Source: Cordylochernes scorpioides (taxonomy: Eukaryota; Arthropoda; Arachnida; Pseudoscorpiones; Chernetidae). From it: a stretch of DNA of 64,000 nt. Shown piece by piece: positions 3,285-64,000 of this stretch. The stretch lies in NCBI GenBank assembly GCA_030710605.1, contig CP092865.1, positions 140,019,505 to 140,083,504 on the forward strand, written 5' to 3'. The notes beneath the pieces are model-generated. The model ran no database searches and was not told where the DNA came from. It was given only the letters and a program-made list of their open reading frames with translations. A program made the position numbers and the translations under genes. Position 1 is the first letter of the stretch; each line of letters starts with the position of its first letter.

Positions 3285-3344
3285 CGCCCCAAATTTGAAG
3301 AAGCAAACCTAAAGTGAAACTGCTAAGCCTAACTCGTGCTAAAT

Positions 3345-4460
3345 ATGACGCACCTTGAGAATCAAGTCCGCCAGTTCAAAGGCAAAAACTTCTCCCTTTG
3401 GAAATTTCAGTTCCGACTACTATTAGAGCAAAATCAACTTTTGGATATCGTGGACGGCAAAGAAATCAAACCAGAGGTAAGTGACGCTACCTCTGCTATA
3501 CAGGATGCATGGCACGCCAAAGATATCAAAGCCCGAATGCTTATATCACAGGCACTTGAATTAAGATTTCTAGAACCTTTGATGTCCTGTAAAACTGCCG
3601 CTCAAATGTGGACAAGGCTCATGTCCATCCACGAACAGAGATCAGAGATCGCAATTGGCATGTTGTGGCAACAATTTTTTGACGCCCGAATGTCGTCATC
3701 AGAGGATGTCAGCAGCTATATCGCCAAGATTGAAAATCTTAGTGCAAGAATTCAGGATGCAGGAGGAACGATTACAGATGACCAGAAAGTGGCAAAGATA
3801 ATAAACTCTCTTCCTTCGAGCATGCGGTATTTCATCCCAGCATGGGAGTCTCAAGCGCCGATTACGCAGACTCTAGAGAACTTATCAGCACGTATTCTGA
3901 TTGAAGAATGTAGAAACCAGCAGGCCGATTCCTCGCAAGGTACAGCATTCTACCAACAGACTAAACCAAGAATCAAAGAAGATAACATAAAGAAGACTGA
4001 TTCAAGAAAGATATCAGAACTAAAGAAAAAGACTGAATGCCATTATTGTCACAAGATTGGTCATTGGTCACGGGAATGTCGGAAACGGATTGCCGACCAG
4101 CAGAAGAAAAACGAGAAGCGGAAGAACCAAGCAGGAGATTGTGATCATAAAGGTTTCAACGCTGATACCATCCTAAAGTGGAATGATTGCGACATATGGT
4201 GGGCAGATAGCGGAGCTAGCTGCAGCATGACCTTCCGACGTGAATGGTTCAAGTCCTTCACTCCGATCCACAACGATCATAGAATATACCTTGGAGACAA
4301 CACTTCCGTCCTTGCAGAAGGTAGAGGTGACATTGAAATCCTTGCCATGGTGAATGGAGAATGGATTACAACATATCAATCAGGAATGTGCTCTACTCTT
4401 CGAAGCTCAAGAAAAATTTGTTCAGCCTGGGAGTGTGCACTGAAAAGGGATACCGAGTAG
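3345..4460 (+). CDS. Copia Gag-protease frame
   Basis: The first ATG in frame is at 3345 (an in-frame GTG lies at 3336), giving about 371 residues. The N-terminal 200 residues show a Copia Gag pattern (GKNFSLWKFQFRLLLE, followed by a helical UBN2-like region). A zinc knuckle of form C-x2-C-x4-H-x4-C sits at about residues 232-245 and would bind the element RNA in the particle. The aspartic protease site reads WWADSGA, with the catalytic D at about residue 288. After roughly residue 342 the frame leaves the expected Copia protein and ends at 4460, while the next frame (-1) carries the continuation from about 4361. Typical Copia elements use one long frame, so this is either a decay indel or a recoding site. 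Everything upstream of the shift looks intact. Confidence 0.9.
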   Translation: MTHLENQVRQFKGKNFSLWKFQFRLLLEQNQLLDIVDGKEIKPEVSDATSAIQDAWHAKDIKARMLISQALELRFLEPLMSCKTAAQMWTRLMSIHEQRSEIAIGMLWQQFFDARMSSSEDVSSYIAKIENLSARIQDAGGTITDDQKVAKIINSLPSSMRYFIPAWESQAPITQTLENLSARILIEECRNQQADSSQGTAFYQQTKPRIKEDNIKKTDSRKISELKKKTECHYCHKIGHWSRECRKRIADQQKKNEKRKNQAGDCDHKGFNADTILKWNDCDIWWADSGASCSMTFRREWFKSFTPIHNDHRIYLGDNTSVLAEGRGDIEILAMVNGEWITTYQSGMCSTLRSSRKICSAWECALKRDTE

Positions 4461-7171
4461 ACATCGACAAGGATGAGCTGCGCATCTACTCAAGAAAAGA
4501 TCTGAAAGCAGTTGGACAACGCCAAGATGGGCTCTACAAGATGATGTTCCGAGTTACTTCATCTTCACAAGGATTTTCTGCAAAGATCAACAACCTCCAA
4601 CTGTGGCACGAAAGACTAGCACACATCTCACTCACCACTATTCGAGAAATGGCCAAGAAAGGATTGATCAACGGTTTTCAATCCGAGGACATAAAAGAAG
4701 ACGATTTCTTCTGTCAAGGCTGCCAAGAAGGAAAAGCTCACAGAAAGCTTAGTCATTTGTCTGAAACAAAAGAGTACAATCCTGGTGAGTTCATTCTAAG
4801 TGATATCTGCGGCCCTATGCCAACACAATCAATAGGAGGATCACTTTATTTCATTTTATTCAAAGATTATTCCAGTGGCTTTCGCCATATAGATTTCATT
4901 AGACACAAATTCGATATTTTACACAAATTTGAAAACTTTTCTAGATTCAGTTATAATCAAACAGGCAATAAAATTAAAGTGATTAGAACCGATAATGCAC
5001 TAGAATATACCAGTAAAGATTTCACAAATACTTGCAGAAAGTTCGGAATAGTGCATGAATTGTCAGCTCCATATGTTCACGAACAGATAGGGCGCGTAGA
5101 ACGAGACAATAGAACTATTGTCGAAGCAGCTCGATCGATGCTGTGCGCACGAAATCTTCCCGAAGAACTTTGGGCAGAAGCTTGCAATACTGCAACCTTC
5201 ATTCTAAACCGAACATTCACTAAACAAGCTCCCAATACCACACCCTATGAACTCTTTTTCGGAAGAAAAGTTAGTTTATATAATCTAAAGATTTTCGGCT
5301 GTGAAGCATGGTTGCATACACCTAAAGAACGTAGAAGGAAATGGGATAAGAAATCACAAAAGATGATTTTCTTAGGATACGATAAAACATGCACTAACTT
5401 TCGACTCTGGAACCCTTCTACTAGAAAGATTTCTATCTCTAAAGATGTTACTTTTAACGAGACAAAACTCCAACATTACGAACTAGAGGGAGAAAACCTC
5501 ATCCCAATAAACATTGACTTTAACCCGCCGGCACCACCGACCGAGGATGAATCACCTACAACGCTACAATTTCCCACGCCGCCCGCATTCCACCCGATGA
5601 TAACTCGATCTAAAAAGAAAGCAGATTCTTGTAACTACCATTTTGTCGATGAGCCTTCAACCTATAAAGATGCTATGGAAAGTCCAAATGCCGAAAAATG
5701 GTTGGATGCAATGAAAGAAGAAATAAAAACGTTAGAATCTAATAACACATGGTCACTCGAAACCTTACCAGACGGATATAAGCCAATAGGAAGTAAATGG
5801 GTTTATAAGCTAAAATCCCATCCCAACTCTACGGCACCTAAATTTAAGCCTAGACTTGTAGCTAAGGGTTACACACAAAGGAAGAACGTAGACTATTTCG
5901 ACACCTTCAGTCCTGTTGTCAGATATGATTCACTTCGAGTGTTAGTAGCAAACGCGGCATCAGAAAGAATGTTCTTAAAACAATTTGACGTAAATACTGC
6001 ATTTTTATATGGTGACCTAGACGAAGTCATATACTTAGAACAACCAGAAGGTTTCTCTCAAGGACACAATTTTGTTTGTAAACTACAAAAGAGTCTATAT
6101 GGACTGAAACAATCGTCCAGAAATTGGAATAGGAAGTTTAAATCCTTCTTAGAGAAACACAATTTTTTTCAATCTAATGCAGATCAATGTGTTTTCACCG
6201 GAACTATTAACGACACTCAAATGATCCTTGCTCTTTACGTCGATGATGGACTTCTCATGTCTCGGAACAAGGACGATATCGATTCTATCGTCCAGGAACT
6301 ATCTCACGAGTTCAATATAACGTCTAGAGATGCAGATTATTTCGTAGGACTTCAGATTGAACAATCAGAGGATAGATCGAAGATCTATATCCACCAATCT
6401 TCATACATAAACAAGATTTTAGATAAATTCAACATGATTGATTGCAAACCCGCAGCAGTACCCATGGACCCGAGTACAGTCCTAACTAAAGCTGATTGCC
6501 CAGACTTAGATAAAAATGGAAATTCACCAAAATTTCCTTACAGAGAAGCCGTAGGCTCACTAATGTTTGCCTCTTCTGTTTCTAGACCGGACATAGCTTT
6601 TGCAACATCACAGTTAAGTAAATACCTTGACAACCCAGGACAGACACACTGGACAGCAATTAAAAGTGTATTTCGCTACTTGAAAGCAACACCACAATTA
6701 GGAATATTGTACGCTAGCCATCAAGAGTTAACAGGTTACTCAGATAGCGATTATGCTAGGGACATTGATTCAAGGAAAAGTACTACAGGTTACATCTTCA
6801 TGTTAAACCATGGTGCTGTTTCATGGTCAAGCCAAAAGCAATCGACAGTTGCCCTCTCGACAACAGAAAGTGAATATATTGCTGCCTGTGCTGCTACTAA
6901 AGAAATGGTCTGGCTACGCAGACTTCTTAAGGATATCGGGATTAAGATGGACAGACCCACAGTACTCAACATGGATAATCAAGCAGCCATAAAGCTAGTG
7001 CAGAATCCCGAGTTCCATAAGAGAACGAAGCACATTGATGTACGATATCACTACATTCGTACTAAACAGGAAGATGGTGAGCTGATCACAGGATATGTCA
7101 GCACTCTTCAGCAGACGGCTGACCTCCTGACGAAACCTTTGGGACCGAAACACTTCAGGCGGCTCCTATAA
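4361..7171 (+). CDS. Copia Pol frame: integrase, reverse transcriptase, RNase H
   Basis: 936 codons open without interruption. The first ATG at 4361 is probably not a genuine start; this is the continuation of Pol in the -1 frame. Integrase zinc finger: H83, H88, C118, C121. Integrase catalytic D148 (SDICGPM), D211 (RTDNALE) and E247 (GRVERDN), with 35 residues between the last two. A KKxxxIFLGY motif at about 330-340 is typical of Copia. RT spans about 440-700, with FKPRLVAKGYTQ at 495-506 and the active-site YVDD at 626-629. RNase H starts near 790 (GYSDSDYA, STTESEY). The enzyme would copy the RNA to DNA in particles and integrate it. The frame ends just before the purine tract. All catalytic residues I can check are present. 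Confidence 0.95.
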   Translation: MDYNISIRNVLYSSKLKKNLFSLGVCTEKGYRVDIDKDELRIYSRKDLKAVGQRQDGLYKMMFRVTSSSQGFSAKINNLQLWHERLAHISLTTIREMAKKGLINGFQSEDIKEDDFFCQGCQEGKAHRKLSHLSETKEYNPGEFILSDICGPMPTQSIGGSLYFILFKDYSSGFRHIDFIRHKFDILHKFENFSRFSYNQTGNKIKVIRTDNALEYTSKDFTNTCRKFGIVHELSAPYVHEQIGRVERDNRTIVEAARSMLCARNLPEELWAEACNTATFILNRTFTKQAPNTTPYELFFGRKVSLYNLKIFGCEAWLHTPKERRRKWDKKSQKMIFLGYDKTCTNFRLWNPSTRKISISKDVTFNETKLQHYELEGENLIPINIDFNPPAPPTEDESPTTLQFPTPPAFHPMITRSKKKADSCNYHFVDEPSTYKDAMESPNAEKWLDAMKEEIKTLESNNTWSLETLPDGYKPIGSKWVYKLKSHPNSTAPKFKPRLVAKGYTQRKNVDYFDTFSPVVRYDSLRVLVANAASERMFLKQFDVNTAFLYGDLDEVIYLEQPEGFSQGHNFVCKLQKSLYGLKQSSRNWNRKFKSFLEKHNFFQSNADQCVFTGTINDTQMILALYVDDGLLMSRNKDDIDSIVQELSHEFNITSRDADYFVGLQIEQSEDRSKIYIHQSSYINKILDKFNMIDCKPAAVPMDPSTVLTKADCPDLDKNGNSPKFPYREAVGSLMFASSVSRPDIAFATSQLSKYLDNPGQTHWTAIKSVFRYLKATPQLGILYASHQELTGYSDSDYARDIDSRKSTTGYIFMLNHGAVSWSSQKQSTVALSTTESEYIAACAATKEMVWLRRLLKDIGIKMDRPTVLNMDNQAAIKLVQNPEFHKRTKHIDVRYHYIRTKQEDGELITGYVSTLQQTADLLTKPLGPKHFRRLL

Positions 7172-14114: not shown

Positions 14115-14412
14115 ATTTCACGGGTCTATTCAACCTTGCTTTAGCTTTATTAATCTCAATAAAGGTCACTGTATACCCATTCCAAGAGTCTAGTATCAGT
14201 ATCACTATGAAAGGAAAATAGGAAAATTCAATATAAAAGCGGTATGGTAGATTAAACTAGCGAAATCGCTTCACCACTGATGAGCCAGGCTCTCCCATTA
14301 ATTTTTCCATTGAATTAAGGGTAGTATAAATTGCTTAATTTTAAAGAATCATACGCGTCTATAATAGTTTCAAATTTTCATAACAGATGGCGCGCTAATG
14401 CATCATAAGATT
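14115..14412 (+). mobile_element. Fam-B repeat, near full length
   Basis: Hallmarks in order: tagtatcagtatcactat, the hammerhead-like block (14238-14300), ccattaatttttccattg, a degenerate gtagtataaattg, agaatcatacgcgtctataa, and cagatggcgcgctaatgcat. Related copies lie at 28087, 33650, 34620, 37105 and 44590. Confidence 0.85.
14238..14300 (+). ncRNA. Hammerhead-like ribozyme core in permuted strand order (Fam-B)
   Basis: Seen in order: agcggt-A-tggt (14238-14248), a linker, ctagc-GAAA-tcgct (14257-14270), a short linker, acca-CTGATGA-gccag (14273-14288). The arms pair as stem III (agcggt with atcgct, one G-U), stem I (tggt with acca) and stem II (gccag with ctagc, one mismatch). All conserved hammerhead core bases are present and the cleavage triplet would be GTA, but the linear order differs from every known hammerhead circular permutation. 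Activity is inference. Confidence 0.5.
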
Positions 14413-14429
14413 AGTGTGTATTAAATATA

Positions 14430-15005
14430 TTTCAGAGTTATTGTCTGAATCCCGATAAACATGCAAAAAGGTACAATTTGCTTATGCTTTGTCCATGAGT
14501 GTATTTGTTCACACTTGGTTATCTCTTGTGTATTCAATAAAGATCACTGTAATATCTTTCAGAGTTATTGTCTGAATCCCGATATAATGCTAAAAGGTAC
14601 AACTTCCTTAAGTTTTGTCCATGAGTGTATCTTTCAGAGTTATCGTCTGAATCCCGATATAATGCTGAAAGGTACAATTTCATTAAGTTTTAGCCATGAG
14701 TGTATCTTTCAGTTATTGTCTGAATCCCGATATACATGCTAAAACGTACAACTTCCTTAAGTTTTGTCCATGAGTGTATCTTTCAGAGTTATTGTCTGAA
14801 TCCCGATATACATGCTAAAAGGTACAACTTCCTTAAGTTTTGTTCATGAGTGTATCTTTCAGAGTTATTGTCTAAATCCCGATATACTTGCTAAAAGGTA
14901 CAACTTTCTTAAGTTTTGTTCATGAGTGTATCTTTCAGAGTTATTGTCTGAATCCCGATATACATGCTAAAAAGTACAACTTCCTTAAGTGTTGTCTGTG
15001 AATGT
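14430..15005 (-). repeat. M1 MITE internally expanded in 76-bp units
   Basis: About seven units containing tctttcagagttattgtctg, aatcccgatatacatgctaa and ttaagttttgtccatgagtg. The last phrase is the terminal repeat of the M1 MITE, so each unit carries a terminus. The same 76-bp period is used at 33811-34190. Confidence 0.9.
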
Positions 15006-15329
15006 ATATCCATATATCCTCACAAAGATCCTAGCTCTTACCATACCATTTATCCTTCTCCATAAACAGGACTTTCCAAACACCATTTAAAAGGCGCAAA
15101 TGTAATCAGGGAGTTTCAAAGCCATTTATAGATTTAATCGAAAAAAAAATGAGATCGGCTAATGGTGAATTAATGGTGGTGTCATATAGCTAATGATTCT
15201 GCCATTCCAGAACCACTTGCTACTGAGCATATTGTGGCGATGAAATAATTGTTTTAACTTTTATTTATTTATTTATTTAATCAAGGAAAATATATACAGC
15301 AGAATATATTTCTATGAAACCATATTACC

Positions 15330-27985: not shown

Positions 27986-28366
27986 AGGTTGTCCCAAAAG
28001 TTCGTTTTTTCTAAAAACGTTGTTTTTCTTATTACTTGGCTAATAATATTATTACGGCGAATACATAATAATACATAATACAATTATGAAAATTCGAAAC
28101 TATTATAGACGCGTATGATTCTTTTAAAAATAAAACAATTTCTACTGCCCTTACTGTAATGTAAAAATTAATGCATTGCAGTAAGGGCAGTAGAAATTGT
28201 TTTATTTTTAAAAGAATCATACGCGTCTATAATAGTTTCGAAATTTCATAACAGATGGCGCGCTAATGCATCATAAAATAATACAAAGACATTATACATA
28301 ACGGCGAATAATATTGGTATTTCAATTTTTGACAAGTGTTTACGAACTTTTGGGACAACCTTGTAC
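27986..28366. mobile_element. M2 mariner-type MITE carrying a Fam-B foldback
   Basis: Inverted ends aaggttgtcccaaaagttcg and cgaacttttgggacaacctt are typical mariner termini. The two inversely arranged M2 copies at 48175-48305 and 61510-61690 lack the central insertion (about 28085-28280), so the Fam-B piece came later. Confidence 0.85.
28087..28280. mobile_element. Fam-B half joined head-to-head as a foldback
   Basis: About 70-bp arms (ctattatagacgcgtatgat ... ctgcccttactg / cagtaagggcag ... atcatacgcgtctataatag) separated by about 12 bp. It holds the right half of Fam-B twice, without the ribozyme block. Confidence 0.9.
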
Positions 28367-33644: not shown

Positions 33645-33800
33645 AGAGCTCTATAAAGCGCGGTATAGTAGATTAAACTATCGAAACCGCTGTGAGGGTT
33701 TATCACTGATGAGCCAAACCCTTCTAATATTTTTAATCGCAGTAAGGACAACACAAAGTTTGTTTAATTTAAAAAAAATTGCAATTAGTAGTTTCATTTC
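33645..33800 (+). mobile_element. Fam-B repeat with hammerhead-like block, diverged
   Basis: gcggtatagtagattaaact, atcgaaaccgctgtgagg, tatcactgatgagcc and aacccttct. Core motifs CGAAAC and CTGATGA are kept. The outer hairpin of strand B is agggttt/aaaccct here instead of gggaggg/ccctccc, a different pair of arms that still pairs. Confidence 0.75.
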
Positions 33801-33810
33801 TTATATATAC

Positions 33811-34326
33811 ACTGATGGACAAAACTTAAGGAAGTTGCACCTTTTAGCATGTATATCGGGATTCAGACAATAACTCTGAAAGATACACTCTTGGACAAAA
33901 CTTAAGGAAGTTGTACCTTTTAGCATGTATATCGGGATTCAGACAATAACTCTGAAAGATACACTCATAGACAAAACTTAAGGAAGTTGTACCTTTTAGC
34001 ATGCATATCGGGATTCAGACAATAACTCTGAAAGATACACTCATGGACAAAACTTAAGGAAGTTGTACCTTTTAGCATGCATATCGGGATTCAGACAATA
34101 ACTCTGAAAGATACACTCATGGACAAAACTTAAGGAAGTTGTACCTTTTAGCATGCATATCGGGATTCACACAATAACTCTGAAAGATATTTGATACACA
34201 GTGACCTTTATTGAAGACACACGAGATAACCAAGTATGAACAAAATTGCCTCTGTCTACATCCAAAAAAGTAGATGATTAGACATAAAAGACTTTCAAAT
34301 TCCATAAGTTTTGTCCATGAGTGTAG
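33811..34326 (+). mobile_element. M1 MITE with five 76-bp internal units
   Basis: Begins cactgatggacaaaacttaa and ends ccataagttttgtccatgag-tgta. Each unit restarts with the terminal motif actcatggacaaaacttaag. Both ends are present, with TA beside them. Confidence 0.9.
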
Positions 34327-34615: not shown

Positions 34616-34619
34616 TCCA

Positions 34620-34925
34620 GCATTTTCGCCAGTTTAATCTACCATATTTAACTGATATCAGATTAAACTGGCGCTTGGAGGGTTCACTACTGATGAGCCA
34701 GAGGCCCTCCCCATAGTCTATGATTGCAATGAAAACATTAGAATATTTATTTTAAGGAAGGAATCAAAATTAAAGAAACTCGTCACCGTCAGCTTTGATT
34801 CCTTTCTCGAAATGATGTCTGGTGATTCCTTCTTTTGTAATATTTATTTTATATCAAAACGAATCATACGCGTCAAAAATAGATTTGTCATAACAGAGAA
34901 GGCGCGCTAATGCATAATACAATGT
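34620..34925. mobile_element. Fam-B repeat, rearranged
   Basis: cgccagtttaatctaccata (inverted) followed by agattaaactggcgcttgga, then actgatgagccagaggccct; the GAAA strand is lost. Downstream at 34860-34915 lies the family end gaatcatacgcgtc and ggcgcgctaatgcat. Confidence 0.7.
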
Positions 34926-36790: not shown

Positions 36791-37104
36791 GATGATGTCC
36801 AATGTCCGTCGACTCCATATTCTCAATACCTGGATTAGAACCTACATTCTAATATTCAACTGAACTAAAATCACCCTTTCAAACAAATCCAAGATCCATC
36901 TGGGAATACGTTTCTTTATCAGTTTTAATTTTATGAACTTAAGATTTCAGGCCTATATATTCTTTGAGTTATTGTGTTACTCCTGTCGAATGGCGTATAG
37001 GCTCTATACCTTGAAATCAGTTAATAACAGTAAAACTTCTAATTTTGATCATTTTTTTCACATAGTTAATCACCTTTGTTTATTTTTTTGTACAAAACCT
37101 ATTT

Positions 37105-37378
37105 ATATATTTATAATTGTATGTAATTCTACTGTCCTCAAAGCTTATGTCCATAGTTGATCTAAAATACCCATTCCAAGAATCTAGCATCAGTATCACT
37201 ATAAAAGGAAGATCGAAAAATGCAATATAACAGCGGTATGGTATATTAAATTGGCGAAACAGCTCCACCACTGATGAACCAGGCCCTCCCATTAATTTTT
37301 CCATTGCAGTAAGGGCAGTAGAAATTGTTTAATTTTAAAAATAATCTTACGCGTCTAAAATAGTTTCTAATTTACAAA
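37105..37378 (+). mobile_element. Fam-B repeat with hammerhead-like block
   Basis: ttataattgtatgtaattct, cagcggtatggtatattaaa, ttggcgaaacagctcc, accactgatgaaccagg, gcagtaagggcagtagaaat. Stem I arms (tggt/acca) are intact; stem II has one A-C mismatch; the gggaggg arm is deleted. Confidence 0.85.
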
Positions 37379-37739
37379 ACCTATCTTTTTATCTAAAAGG
37401 AGTGGTTAATTCTCCCTTTAACATATTTTTCTAGCCGATACAGCTTTAGGTCTCTATGTGCCATAGACGAATAAATTTGTGTTATGCTCTTCTGAAGCCA
37501 TTGTCGCCCCCTCTTTGGACACGTAGAGATTTGGAAATAGGTTATAAAATAACAGAAACAACGGTAAAATCATCCTATTTTGTCCTACTAAAATGTAGAA
37601 CCAGTGAGATAACCATTATTTACAGTACTTAATTGTAGAACTGGTGAGATAAGTAGACAAAGCTCTTATCAGTCAAATACTCAGAGAGAGGCTTGTAAGA
37701 TTTTGATTACAAGTACTAATCAGTAAATGTATCTTTTAA

Positions 37740-44425: not shown

Positions 44426-44589
44426 AAATTTTCTTCTTAAGTTTTGTCTATGAGTTTATGTAAGTGAGGAAGAGCTTGAACGAAAATAAGAATTACATTA
44501 GGATACATTAGCGCGCCATCTGTTATGAAAATAAAAAGACTCAATTGTATATTTGCGGAAGAGCGATTGCTCGAAGTATATTATATATT

Positions 44590-44850
44590 TATAATTGTAT
44601 GTAATTCTACTGTCCTCAAAGCTTATATCCATAGTTAATCTAAAATACATATTCAAATAGTCTAGCATCAGTATCACTATAAAAGGAAAACCGAAAAATG
44701 CAATATAACAGCGGTAAGATAGATTAAACTGGCGAAACCGCTGGGAGGGTTCACCACTGATGAGCCAGGCCCTCCCATTAATTTTTCATTGCAGTAAGGG
44801 CAGTAGAAATTGTTCAATTAAAAAAAAAAGAATCATACGCATCTTTAATA
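44590..44850 (+). mobile_element. Fam-B repeat with hammerhead-like block, near full length
   Basis: Upstream text equals that of 37105 (aattgtatgtaattctactg, agtctagcatcagtatcact). The ribozyme-like block is 44710-44776. The end contains gcagtaagggcagtagaaat and gaatcatacgc. A detached inverted end lies at 44505-44525. Confidence 0.85.
44710..44776 (+). ncRNA. Hammerhead-like core in permuted order (Fam-B reference copy)
   Basis: agcggt (44710-44715), A, agat, linker, ctggc (44729-44733), GAAA (44734-44737), accgct (44737-44742), gggaggg (44743-44749), acca (44753-44756), CTGATGA (44757-44763), gccag (44764-44768), ccctccc (44770-44776). Stem III and stem II are perfect; stem I is broken here (agat instead of tggt). 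gggaggg/ccctccc closes a hairpin around the CTGATGA strand, and agcggt/accgct closes one around the GAAA strand. Confidence 0.5.
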
Positions 44851-44854
44851 TATT

Positions 44855-44936
44855 TTTTAAATAGTGCAGACTAACCACTTTGCATGTATTGACAAGATGT
44901 CAATAAAATTATTTTAATTGTCTTTAATAATTTCGT
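44855..44936 (+). mobile_element. LINE tail GACAAGATGTCAATAAA (copy 3)
   Basis: gtgcagactaaccactttgc, then atgtattgacaagatgtcaa and taaaattattttaattgtc. Confidence 0.65.
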
Positions 44937-45879: not shown

Positions 45880-46050
45880 CAGGGCATGTCTTTTTCTCAA
45901 AAAGTTACATTTGGTGATGTTACATCCTGAAAAGTAAAGAGCTTATCGGTTAAATATTCAGTTTCACACAACAAGGAGATGTCTTTTTCTCAAAGAGTTA
46001 CACTTGGTGATGTTACATTCTGAAAAGTAAAGAGCATGTGGGTAAGAATT
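45880..46050 (+). repeat. Tandem pair of ~85-bp units
   Basis: atgtctttttctcaaaaagt, ggtgatgttacatcctgaaa and gtaaagagc occur twice. Confidence 0.85.
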
Positions 46051-46309
46051 CAGGCTGTAATACCTGCCTGAGGTTACACAAAGATAAGAAATGAATGGAT
46101 TCAGTTGCATCTTATCTATCAGGCTGCCACTCTCGATATCTCTCCAACTTAGCGGTGGATACGTAACACTTATCTATGTCATTGTTCCCTAAAGGTGTGG
46201 CGCCATGTATGTCGTCATACAACATATATACTTATTTAGCTAATTAAAAAGGCATATATTGGATCAAAATATATACTTATATTATACAATTATTTTATTT
46301 CCAAAGCGC

Positions 46310-46860
46310 TATATCCCGCAAGGGATACTTGCGCCAAACAAGGAGAAAAGTTTATTTACATAAGTTATTTACATTATTCAACGCATGAAAACATTAGAGA
46401 TCCAGATTTTGTAGAAAGTTTAGAATGTATTTACAAAATGAATTGAACTTTAAATATGATTTTTTATCGGAAATCAAATCGTTAAGTTCACAAACAACTA
46501 GTTCATTCTTCATTCTATAATCTTGAAATGCTGGGCAATCGATCAGTAGATATCTTGAGGTTTTCCCTCAATACCACAAAAGCAACTTGAATCCTCCACT
46601 GCCTTTATTCTATTTAAAAAAACTTTTCCGTGGTTTGTAACAAATTGAGTATTATAAAAATTTGGACGAAAGTATTTAGGGATTTCTTGAGGAAAAAAGC
46701 TTAAGAAAGTATTATTTGCTTCGTTTTTCAGAACATTCATTCTTGATTTGAGAAAGGTATCTATAATTTCTGGAATAAATGGGTCATAAATTTGTTGATC
46801 ATCTGTGGATAAGTTTCTCAGATCAGATATCATGATTCTGGATTCGATAAAGCACTTATA
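46310..46860 (-). mobile_element. LINE 3' end, left-arm copy
   Basis: Contains the coding remnant below, then aatgtaaataacttatgtaa, and the tail hairpin gtatcccttgcgggatatag with cgctttggaaataaa (minus strand). Confidence 0.75.
46543..46833 (-). pseudogene. LINE ORF2 C-terminal remnant
   Basis: 96 codons, followed after a frame change by further matching text. The pattern SSCFCGIEGKPQD, then (next frame) LIDCPAFQDYRMKNEL, corresponds to the C-x-C...H/Y-L-x-x-CP knuckle at the end of many LINE ORF2 proteins. The upstream helical part is not diagnostic. The same frame is preserved at 63205-63495 in the right arm with one substitution (E/G), which shows common origin rather than selection. Confidence 0.6.
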
Positions 46861-46949
46861 CTTATATTGTTCTTAATATAGAACAATCCATATGTAAACC
46901 TTTAGATAATAAAAAGGCATATATTGGATTGAATAAGCCTGTGATAGGT

Positions 46950-47234
46950 CTAGTGTCGTAAGTACGGTGCTTGTAGATAATTTTGAAAAGATCTCATCGA
47001 TCGATATGGAAGGGGATACCTATCTAATTCTATTGCTTTATTAGCTTTACATCTAAAATCACCACATATCCTTACACTACCATCCTTTTTTAATACCGGT
47101 ATTATTGGAGCGGCCCAATTTGTATGAACTATAGGTTCTAAAATGCCAGAATTCACTAAACGATCAATTTCATTCTCTACTTTGTTTTTTAGAGAGAAAG
47201 GTAAACTTCTGGCTTTACAAAACACAGGAGTCAC
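46950..47234 (-). pseudogene. Gypsy-type reverse transcriptase fragment
   Basis: 94 codons on the minus strand: FSLKNKVENEIDRLVNSGIL, EPIVHTNWAAPIIPVLKK, DGSVRICGDFRCKANKAIEL, DRYPLP. This is the N-terminal finger region of Gypsy reverse transcriptases (typically ...[30 protein letters not shown]..N..). It breaks off just before the palm. A more damaged copy lies in the right arm (about 62800-63100), where text equivalent to PSIDEIFSKLS is still seen downstream. Confidence 0.85.
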
Positions 47235-48837: not shown

Positions 48838-48944
48838 GTGATATTCTTTACATAGCTTCTAATGAATGAGGCGCATTTTGAATCTACAGGGGGAACTTTT
48901 ATTCCATTATTTCTACAAACAAAAATATCGTAAATAGTTTGGTA

Positions 48945-50010
48945 AACACTCATGGACAAAACTTAAGGAAGTTGTACCTTTTAGCATGTATATCGGGATT
49001 CAGAAAATAACTCTGAAAGATATTACAGTGACCTTTATTGAAGACACACGAGATAACCAAGTGTGTATACACTCATGGACAAAACTTAAGGAAGTTGTAC
49101 CTTTTAGCATGTATATCGGGATTCAGACAATAACTCTGAAAGATATTACAGTGACCTTTATTGAAGACACACGAGATAACCAAGTGTGTATATACTCATG
49201 GACAAATCTTAAGGAAGTTGTACTTTTAGCATGTATATCGGGATTCAGACAATAACTCTGAAAGATATTACAGTGACCTTTATTGAAGACACACGAGATA
49301 ACCAAGTGTGTATACACTCATGGACAAAACTTAAGGAAGTTGTACTTTTTAGCATGTATATCGGGATTCAGACAATAACTCTGAAAAATATTACAGTGAC
49401 CTTTATTGAAGACACACGAGATAACCAAGTGTGTATACACTCATGGACAAAAATTAAGGAAGTTGTACCTTTTAGCATGTATATCGGGATTCAGACAATA
49501 ACTCTGAAAGATATTACAGTGACCTTTATTGAAGACACACAAGATAACCAAGTGTGTATACACTCATGGACAAAACTTAAGAAAGTTGTACCTTTTAGCA
49601 TGTATATCAGGATTCAGACAATAACTCTGGAAGATATTACAGTAACCTTTATTGAAGACACACAAGATAACCAAGTGTGTATACACTCATGGACAAAACT
49701 TAAGGAAGTTGTACCTTTTAGCATGTATATCGGGATTCAGACAATAACTCTGAAAGATATTACAGCAACCTTTATTGAAGACACACGAGATAACCAAGTG
49801 TGTATACACTCATGGACAAAAATTAAGGAAGTTGTACCTTTTAGCATGTATATCGGGATTCAGACAATAACTCTGAAAGATATTACAGTGACCTTTATTG
49901 AAGACACACGAGATAACCAAGTGTGGACAAAATTACCTCTGTCTCCATTAAAAAATAATAGACAACCAGCGACATAAAAATATGAAACTTTCTCAAGTTT
50001 AGTCCATGAG
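48945..50010 (+). repeat. M1 MITE expanded in 123-bp units (about eight)
   Basis: Unit: cactcatggacaaaacttaa, ggaagttgtaccttttagca, tgtatatcgggattcagaca, ataactctgaaagatattac, agtgacctttattgaagac, acacgagataaccaagtgtg. 123 is divisible by three, so a 248-codon frame (49231-49977) stays open by periodicity. The array ends in the M1 right part and tctcaagtttagtccatgag. Confidence 0.95.
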
Positions 50011-62799: not shown

Positions 62800-63115
62800 A
62801 TGTGACTCCTGTGTTTTGTAAAGCCAGAAGTTTACCTTTCTCTCTAAAAAACAAAGTAGGAAATGAAATTGATCGTTTAGTGAATTTTGGAATTTTAGAA
62901 CCTATAGTTCATGCAAATTGGGCCGCTCTCCAATAGTACTGGTATTAAAAACGGATAGTAGTGTGTAAGGATATGTGGTGATTTTATATGTACAGCTAAT
63001 AAAGCAATAGAATTAGATAGGTATCCCCTTCCATCGATCGATGAAATCTTTTCAAAATTATCTACAAGCATCGTACTTTCGACTCTAGACCTATCACAGG
63101 CTTATTCAATCCAAT
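62800..63115 (+). pseudogene. Gypsy reverse transcriptase fragment, right-arm copy, frame-broken
   Basis: Nucleotide partner of 46950-47234. gatgtgactcctgtgttttg, gttcatgcaaattgggccgc and aggatatgtggtgattttat are kept, but small deletions near 62925-62965 break the frame. It continues a little further than the left copy, with ttccatcgatcgatgaaatc, which would encode part of the PSIDEI motif. Confidence 0.8.
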
Positions 63116-63204
63116 ATATGTATTTTTATTATCTAAAGGTTTAAATATGGATTGCTCTATATTAAGAACAATATAAGTATAAGTGCTTTATCGAATCCAG
63201 AATC

Positions 63205-63495
63205 ATGATATCTGATCTGAGAAACTTATCCACAGATGATCAACAAATTTATGACCCATTTATTCCAGGAATTATAGATACCTTTCTCAAATCAAGAATG
63301 AATGTTCTGAAAAACGAAGCAAATAATACTTTCTTAAGCTTTTTTCCTCAAGAAATCCCTAAATACTTTCGTCCAAATTTTTATAATACTCAATTTGTTA
63401 CAAACCACGGAAAAGTTTTTTTAAATAGAATAAAGGCAGTGGAGGATTCAAGTTGCTTTTGTGGCATTGAGGGAAAACCTCAAGACATCTACTGA
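63205..63495 (+). pseudogene. LINE ORF2 C-terminal remnant, right-arm copy
   Basis: Same 96-codon frame as 46543-46833 with one residue change. The following frame gives LIDCPAFQDYRMKNEL. Downstream come the 3' region and tail (gtatcccttgcgggatatag, cgctttggaaataaa) at 63705-63745. A relic only; no reverse transcriptase precedes it. Confidence 0.6.
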
Positions 63496-64000
63496 TCGAT
63501 TGCCCAGCATTTCAAGATTATAGAATGAAGAATGAACTAGTTGTTTGTGAACTTAACGATTTGATTTCCGATAAAAAATCATATTTAAAGTCCAATTCAT
63601 TTTGTAAATACATTCTAAACTTTCTACAAAATCTGGATTTCTAATGTTTTCATGCTTTGAATAATGTAAATAACTTATGTAAATAAACTTTTCTTCTTGT
63701 TTGGCGCAAGTATCCCTTGCGGGATATAGCGCTTTGGAAATAAAATAATTGTATAATATAAGTATATATTTTGATCCAATATATGCCTTTTTAATTAGCT
63801 AAATAAGTATATATGTTGTATGACGACATACATGGCGCCACACCTTTAGGGAACAATGACATAGATAAGTGTTACGTATCCACCGCTAAGTTGGAGAGAT
63901 ATCGAGAGTGGCAGCCTGATAGATAAGATGCAACTGAATCCATTCATTTCTTATCTTTGTGTAACCTCAGGCAGGTATTACAGCCTGAACTCTCACCCAC

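Follow-up and report, generated by a model that had tools for sequence, protein, structure and literature searches.

The question raised by positions 44710-44776 of the DNA described here is why a sequence with all the parts of a hammerhead ribozyme should carry them in the order substrate, GAAA, CUGAUGA. The window, by which we mean the whole 64,000-nucleotide (64-kb) stretch of the pseudoscorpion Cordylochernes scorpioides (assembly GCA_030710605.1, contig CP092865.1, positions 140,019,505 to 140,083,504, forward strand), contains several copies of the repeat family, Fam-B, to which this site belongs. It is in our judgement likely that Fam-B is a short pseudoscorpion retroelement working like an animal retrozyme, with a pseudoknotted hammerhead of type SGC, and that its RNA is cut after residue 17 and reverse-transcribed in trans. 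As far as sequence can indicate, this would be a known ribozyme topology in a new setting, a high-copy, recently amplified, retrozyme-like element for which cleavage is predicted.

The site reads AGCGGT-A-AGAT-agattaaa-CTGGC-GAAA-CCGCT-GGGAGGG-ttc-ACCA-CTGATGA-GCCAG-g-CCCTCCC. An earlier note on this DNA had read it correctly as to strand order, the exact CTGATGA and GAAA, the GTA triplet, and the complementarity of all arms except stem I, which is broken in this copy (AGAT in place of TGGT). What can be read from the Fam-B DNA is its sequence, block order and base pairing, its abundance, the tandem unit, the target duplications and a peak of breakpoints; what we infer is cleavage, a circular RNA and a helper reverse transcriptase, in the following scheme. 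Transcripts of head-to-tail 371-nt units would fold so that blocks S (stem III-UA-stem I), G (stem II-GAAA-stem III) and C (stem I-CUGAUGA-stem II) make up a hammerhead core, held together where a GGGAGGG/CCCUCCC helix bridges stems I and II at their outer ends. Cleavage would follow residue 17, at GUA^UGGU, or at GUC^UGGU in the case of a second subfamily. RNAs of unit length, or trimmed at the 5' end, would then, probably after circularisation, serve as templates for a reverse transcriptase provided in trans, and the copies would be inserted with target duplications, often as head-to-head pairs. The parts of the predicted ribozyme at this site are as follows.

44710-44716, plus strand: block S by the type SGC layout, with the stem III 5' strand AGCGGT (44710-44715) and residue 17, A (44716).
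44716/44717, plus strand: predicted scissile bond.
44717-44720, plus strand: stem I 5' strand, AGAT here and TGGT in the common form.
44729-44742, plus strand: block G, with stem II CTGGC (44729-44733), GAAA (44734-44737) and the stem III 3' strand ACCGCT (44737-44742).
44743-44749, plus strand: fourth helix 5' strand GGGAGGG (stem I-II interaction helix), counterpart of the circled 'I' in Fig. 1C of PMC10085705.
44753-44768, plus strand: block C, with the stem I 3' strand ACCA (44753-44756), CTGATGA (44757-44763) and stem II GCCAG (44764-44768).
44770-44776, plus strand: fourth helix 3' strand CCCTCCC.

There is a published precedent for this strand order. The earlier note held that 'no permutation gives' substrate-GAAA-CUGAUGA; it is, however, the order of blocks S, G and C in the type SGC hammerhead, a non-circular permutation (PMC10085705, Eckert et al. 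2023). The note's pseudoknotted hammerhead therefore survives, and its previously unseen topology does not. In that work 583 sequences were predicted, five RNAs were found to cleave in cis at the predicted bond, and the four helices were subjected to mutational tests; the type includes a helix joining stems I and II, and the HRIMA-1 motif and its variants. Fam-B has the same S-G-C order, with CUGAnGA, GAAA, and UH at the cleavage site; it likewise has stems I-III and a further helix that connects stems I and II at their outer ends. The settings differ, in that type SGC is described from environmental sequences (PMC10085705) and Fam-B lies in animal genomic DNA in tens of thousands of copies.

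Models of hammerheads in Rfam represent the classical strand orders. None of the Rfam hammerhead families was found in the window (at gathering scores), at the locus (E up to 10) or in six loci (E up to 1). Exact pattern scans gave no match in prokaryote genome contigs and none in IMG/VR; matches to a 17-base pattern in 11 IMG/VR contigs were taken for chance, the pattern being short. In the literature searched, which did not extend to preprints or supplements, 'type-SGC' occurred in PMC10085705 only; work since 2023 on 'non-circular permutation' with ribozyme, and the papers citing gkad137, yielded besides PMC10085705 only three-dimensional superposition. Nothing there joined pseudoscorpions to a hammerhead ribozyme, none of the papers listed from 2023 on linked a chelicerate with a hammerhead ribozyme or retrozyme, and for Cordylochernes itself the papers listed include one on Wolbachia. 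Within these searches, a type SGC hammerhead in an animal genome thus appears not to have been reported.

The 2.62-Gb assembly (24 contigs) was scanned with a pattern that fixed the S-G linker, GAAA and CTGATGA and left the arms and the cleavage triplet free. There were 42,907 matches (21,463 + 21,444 by strand), against 0 + 2 for the same pattern read backwards; a similarity search of the genome with a 119-nt query, in which very common words were skipped, found nothing. It should be noted that GAAA and CTGATGA are exact in all extracted copies by design of the pattern, so that they give no unbiased measure of core retention. The commonest form among 99 extracted copies, CAGCGGTATGGT-AGATTAAACTGGCGAAACCGCTGGGAGGGTTCACCACTGATGA-GCCAGGCCCTCCC, has all its arms paired and is found in 10 + 5 copies, the two sets differing at the next base; the consensus that the earlier note had to reconstruct therefore exists as real copies. 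A standard 43-nt core is present in 91 of the 99, the eight of other length being excluded from the pair counts. Stems III (6), I (4) and II (5) are fully paired, with G-U allowed, in 34 of these 91, and the fourth helix is paired as well in 24. The cleavage triplet is GTA in 55 and GTC in 10. Two subfamilies are split by a change in stem II, and the second often has the GTC triplet.

Covariation was assessed on 48 copies (42 distinct rows), 46 of them hand-picked from genomic loci and two from the window. The hand-picking favours pairing, as it required the spacing to be intact and the 5' part to be recognisable; among the distinct rows, 89.8% of cells are paired, compared with 34-57% when the partner strand is slid, and the fourth helix GGGAGGG/CCCTCCC has 88.8% of its cells paired. 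The outer pair of stem II is C-G in 29 rows, U-A in 10 and unpaired in three. The number of cells with a double change was equalled in three of 500 shuffles. The pairing and covariation figures may support the predicted fold but do not prove it.

The host element is a 371-nt unit with a GC content of 34.5%. At 2,194 genomic places its 5' region directly follows its 3' end, head-to-tail, as judged by a pattern that fixed CATC and 19 bases and with an intervening stretch that is nearly constant in the 100 places listed. The array at L137 has seven tandem ribozyme units at 371-nt spacing, six of the seven cores being of the common form; the five comparisons of consecutive units among its first six are identical at 371 of 371 positions, and the array has therefore been amplified recently, which could have come about by local duplication or by transposition. 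The 3' end of the element reads ...AACAGATGGCGCGCTAGTGCATC (at least 51 such ends). For 16 of 66 3' ends the flank matches that upstream over at least 12 nt (exactly 12 nt in 12 cases), as against about 1.3% of 1,293 mismatched pairings, although some of these matches are simple AT-rich sequence. Three loci that were read closely have the arrangement target duplication, inverted 3' segment, direct copy, target duplication.

These features may be compared with those of the animal non-LTR (long terminal repeat) retrozymes, which, according to the sections of Cervera & de la Pena 2020 (PMC7229834) relied on here and below, have tandem units of 170-400 nt, low GC (<45-50%) and target duplications of more than 4 bp, carry type I hammerheads, and have had their circular RNA demonstrated. 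Fam-B resembles them, to the extent of that account, in its short, low-GC tandem units each with a hammerhead, in target duplications of more than 4 bp and in its very high copy number; it differs in having type SGC in place of type I, and in that its circular RNA is a prediction. Because its hammerhead is of type SGC, we class it as a retrozyme-like variant and not as a type I retrozyme. Penelope-like elements, as cited in the same sections, bear minimal type I hammerheads in tandem and have been proposed as the source of reverse transcriptase for retrozymes. Fam-B is like them in its hammerhead-bearing tandem repeats and unlike them in that a 371-nt unit is too short to encode a reverse transcriptase.

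On the 5' side of a Fam-B copy at locus L017 there is an open frame (minus strand, bases 2-820) that by eye looks Penelope-like; its match to GIY-YIG is weak (PF01541, E 0.008) and does not reach the curated cut-off. A Penelope-like carrier was considered and rejected: of the loci compared, this one alone has the GIY-YIG-like neighbour, and the upstream sequence does not recur in the others.

Truncated copies bear indirectly on the predicted cleavage. A break was defined as a place where the upstream sequence leaves the element just before +1, scored as three non-element bases followed by one free base. Copies break within 1 nt of the predicted scissile bond at 1,941 places, whereas control breaks number 247 at -3/-4, 303 at +3/+4 and 86 at -9/-10; the contrast is approximate, because between 20 and 27 bases after the break were fixed, depending on the pattern, some control counts are small deletions, and local duplications inflate all of them. 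Converse breaks, in which the upstream part ends at -1, number 59; in 36 of them GAT follows, as it would after a deletion of TGGTA. Thirty break loci have 26 distinct 20-nt upstream contexts, and the peak therefore does not descend from one founder. In a local count of 174 high-scoring segment pairs, starts at -1 (8) and 0 (2) stand out near the ribozyme, apart from those at -7 and -20, many of which reflect the divergence of the second subfamily. This one-sided pile-up may be a trace of cleavage in the genome: it is what would be left if RNAs whose 5' end lies at the scissile bond were reverse-transcribed with 3' priming.

At two places (L101/L102, the same place as L076, and L098) copies meet head to head in palindromes with CTACCA|TGGTAG at the centre, as though a pair of RNAs, each beginning at the scissile bond, had been joined end to end.

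A number of observations weigh against this interpretation. As to the fold, 57 of the 91 copies have an unpaired position in stems I-III. The covariation test proposed in the earlier note proved weak, with a double change anywhere in only six of 22 pairs and in more than one of the 42 distinct rows at one pair alone, the outer pair of stem II, to which recurrent double change is confined; in 25 of 500 shuffles the covariation score was at least as high, and in 150 of 500 at least as many pairs showed a double change. Fam-B has an S-G linker of 8 nt where published type SGC typically has 3, and its fourth helix follows stem III with no spacer, the published range being 0-44 (PMC10085705); the authors of that study called a zero spacer not obviously compatible with the crystal structure. 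As to the element, the flanks of the loci read, the only place searched for an autonomous partner, did not contain one. As to the breaks, a 3' end was recognised at 10 of the 30 break loci, and at none of these 10 does a target duplication of at least 9 nt adjoin the break; most breaks are inner joints to a segment of the element in inverted orientation, and not joints to a target site. Finally, the A of residue 17 is kept in 78 of 100 breaks among the matches listed (T 12, C 6, G 4; by eye), which tells against a simple cleavage reading because a self-cleaved 3' product should start at U1.1 (+1). The kept A could be an untemplated base, the trace of a religated circle with a modified junction, or the result of a transcription start at residue 17.

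The last of these leads to the alternative that survives best, although we consider it unlikely: a real ribozyme, but a breakpoint peak that is due to transcription starting at residue 17 and not to cleavage, reverse transcripts having reached the 5' end of an RNA begun at a promoter. Besides the kept A, this alternative might draw, without deciding the matter, on the SF2-like copies (residue 17 = C), which break at 127 places; C stands at -1 in 28 of 100 of these among the matches listed, compared with six of 100 in the main set, five of the 28 reading AAGC and being probable 4-base deletions. There is also, in 32 of 95 copies, a TATAAAA box that lies 39 nt upstream of +1. A TATA box usually sets the start about 30 nt downstream. 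This one would therefore place it near -9, where the breaks number only 86, and the peak lies within 1 nt of a bond predicted from the ribozyme fold alone.

Cleavage in cis, as we propose it, might instead be cleavage in trans, with two RNAs or two units acting on each other as paired hairpins. The earlier note had raised this, and it is compatible with the sequence, since stem III closes one hairpin and the fourth helix another; head-to-tail units put two copies on one RNA, and dimeric hammerheads are known from amphibian retrozymes (PMC7229834, in the sections mentioned). A trans-acting pair is, however, not needed, because the type-SGC RNAs already published, 79-81 nt long, cleave in cis while being transcribed (PMC10085705), and we regard it as improbable.

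We think it slightly less probable again that Fam-B is a fold-back DNA transposon, or miniature inverted-repeat transposable element, with terminal inverted repeats and an incidental motif. Among 100 matches listed, the element's neighbours within 400 bp comprise nine head-to-head pairs as against one tail-to-tail and one same-strand pair, and an inverted 3'-end piece of about 25 nt stands at the 5' side of some copies, as such an origin would have it. In the three loci read closely, however, the end point of the inverted part varies and the last ~30 nt are missing from it, and the 2,194 head-to-tail junctions, the arrays and the occurrence of element 5' ends at many places speak against a transposon of this kind.

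The strict scan bears on chance. It required contiguous arms with at least 12 bp in all, and zero sites in the 64-kb window passed it, because every window copy carries at least one lesion, as the earlier note had also seen. In 607 simulated 64-kb windows, with both strands and any block order allowed, there were 18 matches, one of which has Fam-B's block order. That arms and core are a chance resemblance within a high-copy repeat is the least probable of the explanations considered, for although the family is one draw whatever its copy number, recurrent covariation is seen at one pair only and no window copy passes the strict scan, just five simulated sites in any order have at least 15 arm bp, Fam-B has 15 bp together with a fourth 7-bp helix where type SGC has one, and the breakpoint peak falls at the predicted bond.

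CTGATGA with parts of the motif is found at five stretches of the window (14238, 33658, 34690, 37232 and 44710), and the Fam-B copies are distributed as follows.

44581-44860, plus strand: main element copy, part of a ~371-nt retrozyme-like unit, from BLAST to the copies at 37103-37370, 14173-14366 and others.
44498-44532, minus strand: inverted 3'-end fragment (GCGCGCCATCTGTTAT...) on the 5' side of the 44.7-kb copy, from BLAST to the 3' ends of window copies and from the direct/inverted structure of other copies.
14173-14404, plus strand: second copy, with ribozyme at 14238-14296 and an intact 3' end ...GCGCGCTAATGCATC.
37103-37380, plus strand: third copy, with ribozyme at 37232-37290.
33652-33778, plus strand: decayed copy, with a ribozyme core at about 33658-33722.
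34617-34728, plus strand: rearranged copy, an inverted S/G fragment followed by a part with CTGATGAGCC at 34690.
28084-28279, no strand: palindromic copy made of two 3' ends, without a ribozyme.

The copy at 14238 has the single stem II mismatch that the earlier note ascribed to it (CTAGC/GCCAG) and also lacks GGGAGGG; that at 37232 has, by eye, one mismatch each in stems III and II and is likewise without GGGAGGG; and decay is further advanced at 33658 and 34690 than in the other window copies. The sequence CTGATGAGNC occurs five times in the window, where 0.33 would be expected, and four of the five occurrences are Fam-B. The absence of the GGGAGGG strand from both 14173-14404 and 37103-37380 suggests a sublineage without the stem I-II interaction helix.

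Other repeats share the window. A tandem repeat family with 76- and 123-bp spacing and a shared block CACTCATGGACAAAACTTAAGGAAGTTGTACC is present in both orientations at 14575-15007, 33799-34189 and 48939-49967. Inverted repeats of 968 nt, 98% complementary and 16 kb apart (46038-47005 and 63033-64000), have more matching arms inside and are possibly those of a large mobile element. At 3336-7171 two long frames resemble by eye the polyprotein of a copia-type retrotransposon.

To return to Fam-B as a retrozyme-like element with a type SGC hammerhead, we incline, with less assurance than for its identification, to a broader view: that this hammerhead, until now described from environmental RNA sequences, drives a recently amplified animal retrozyme, and that its cleavage in a living animal (or, given the kept residue 17, a religated junction) has left its mark in the ends of nearly two thousand copies in the genome. 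If this is true, the type SGC hammerhead would have a DNA form, a biological function and a host with a name; the knotted order would be sufficient to maintain an element present more than 40,000 times, and retrozymes would not be bound to one hammerhead topology. Kinetic and structural work could take its constructs from nature, in the array of identical units, and the breakpoints seen in the genome would make cleavage in vivo testable through 5'-end chemistry.
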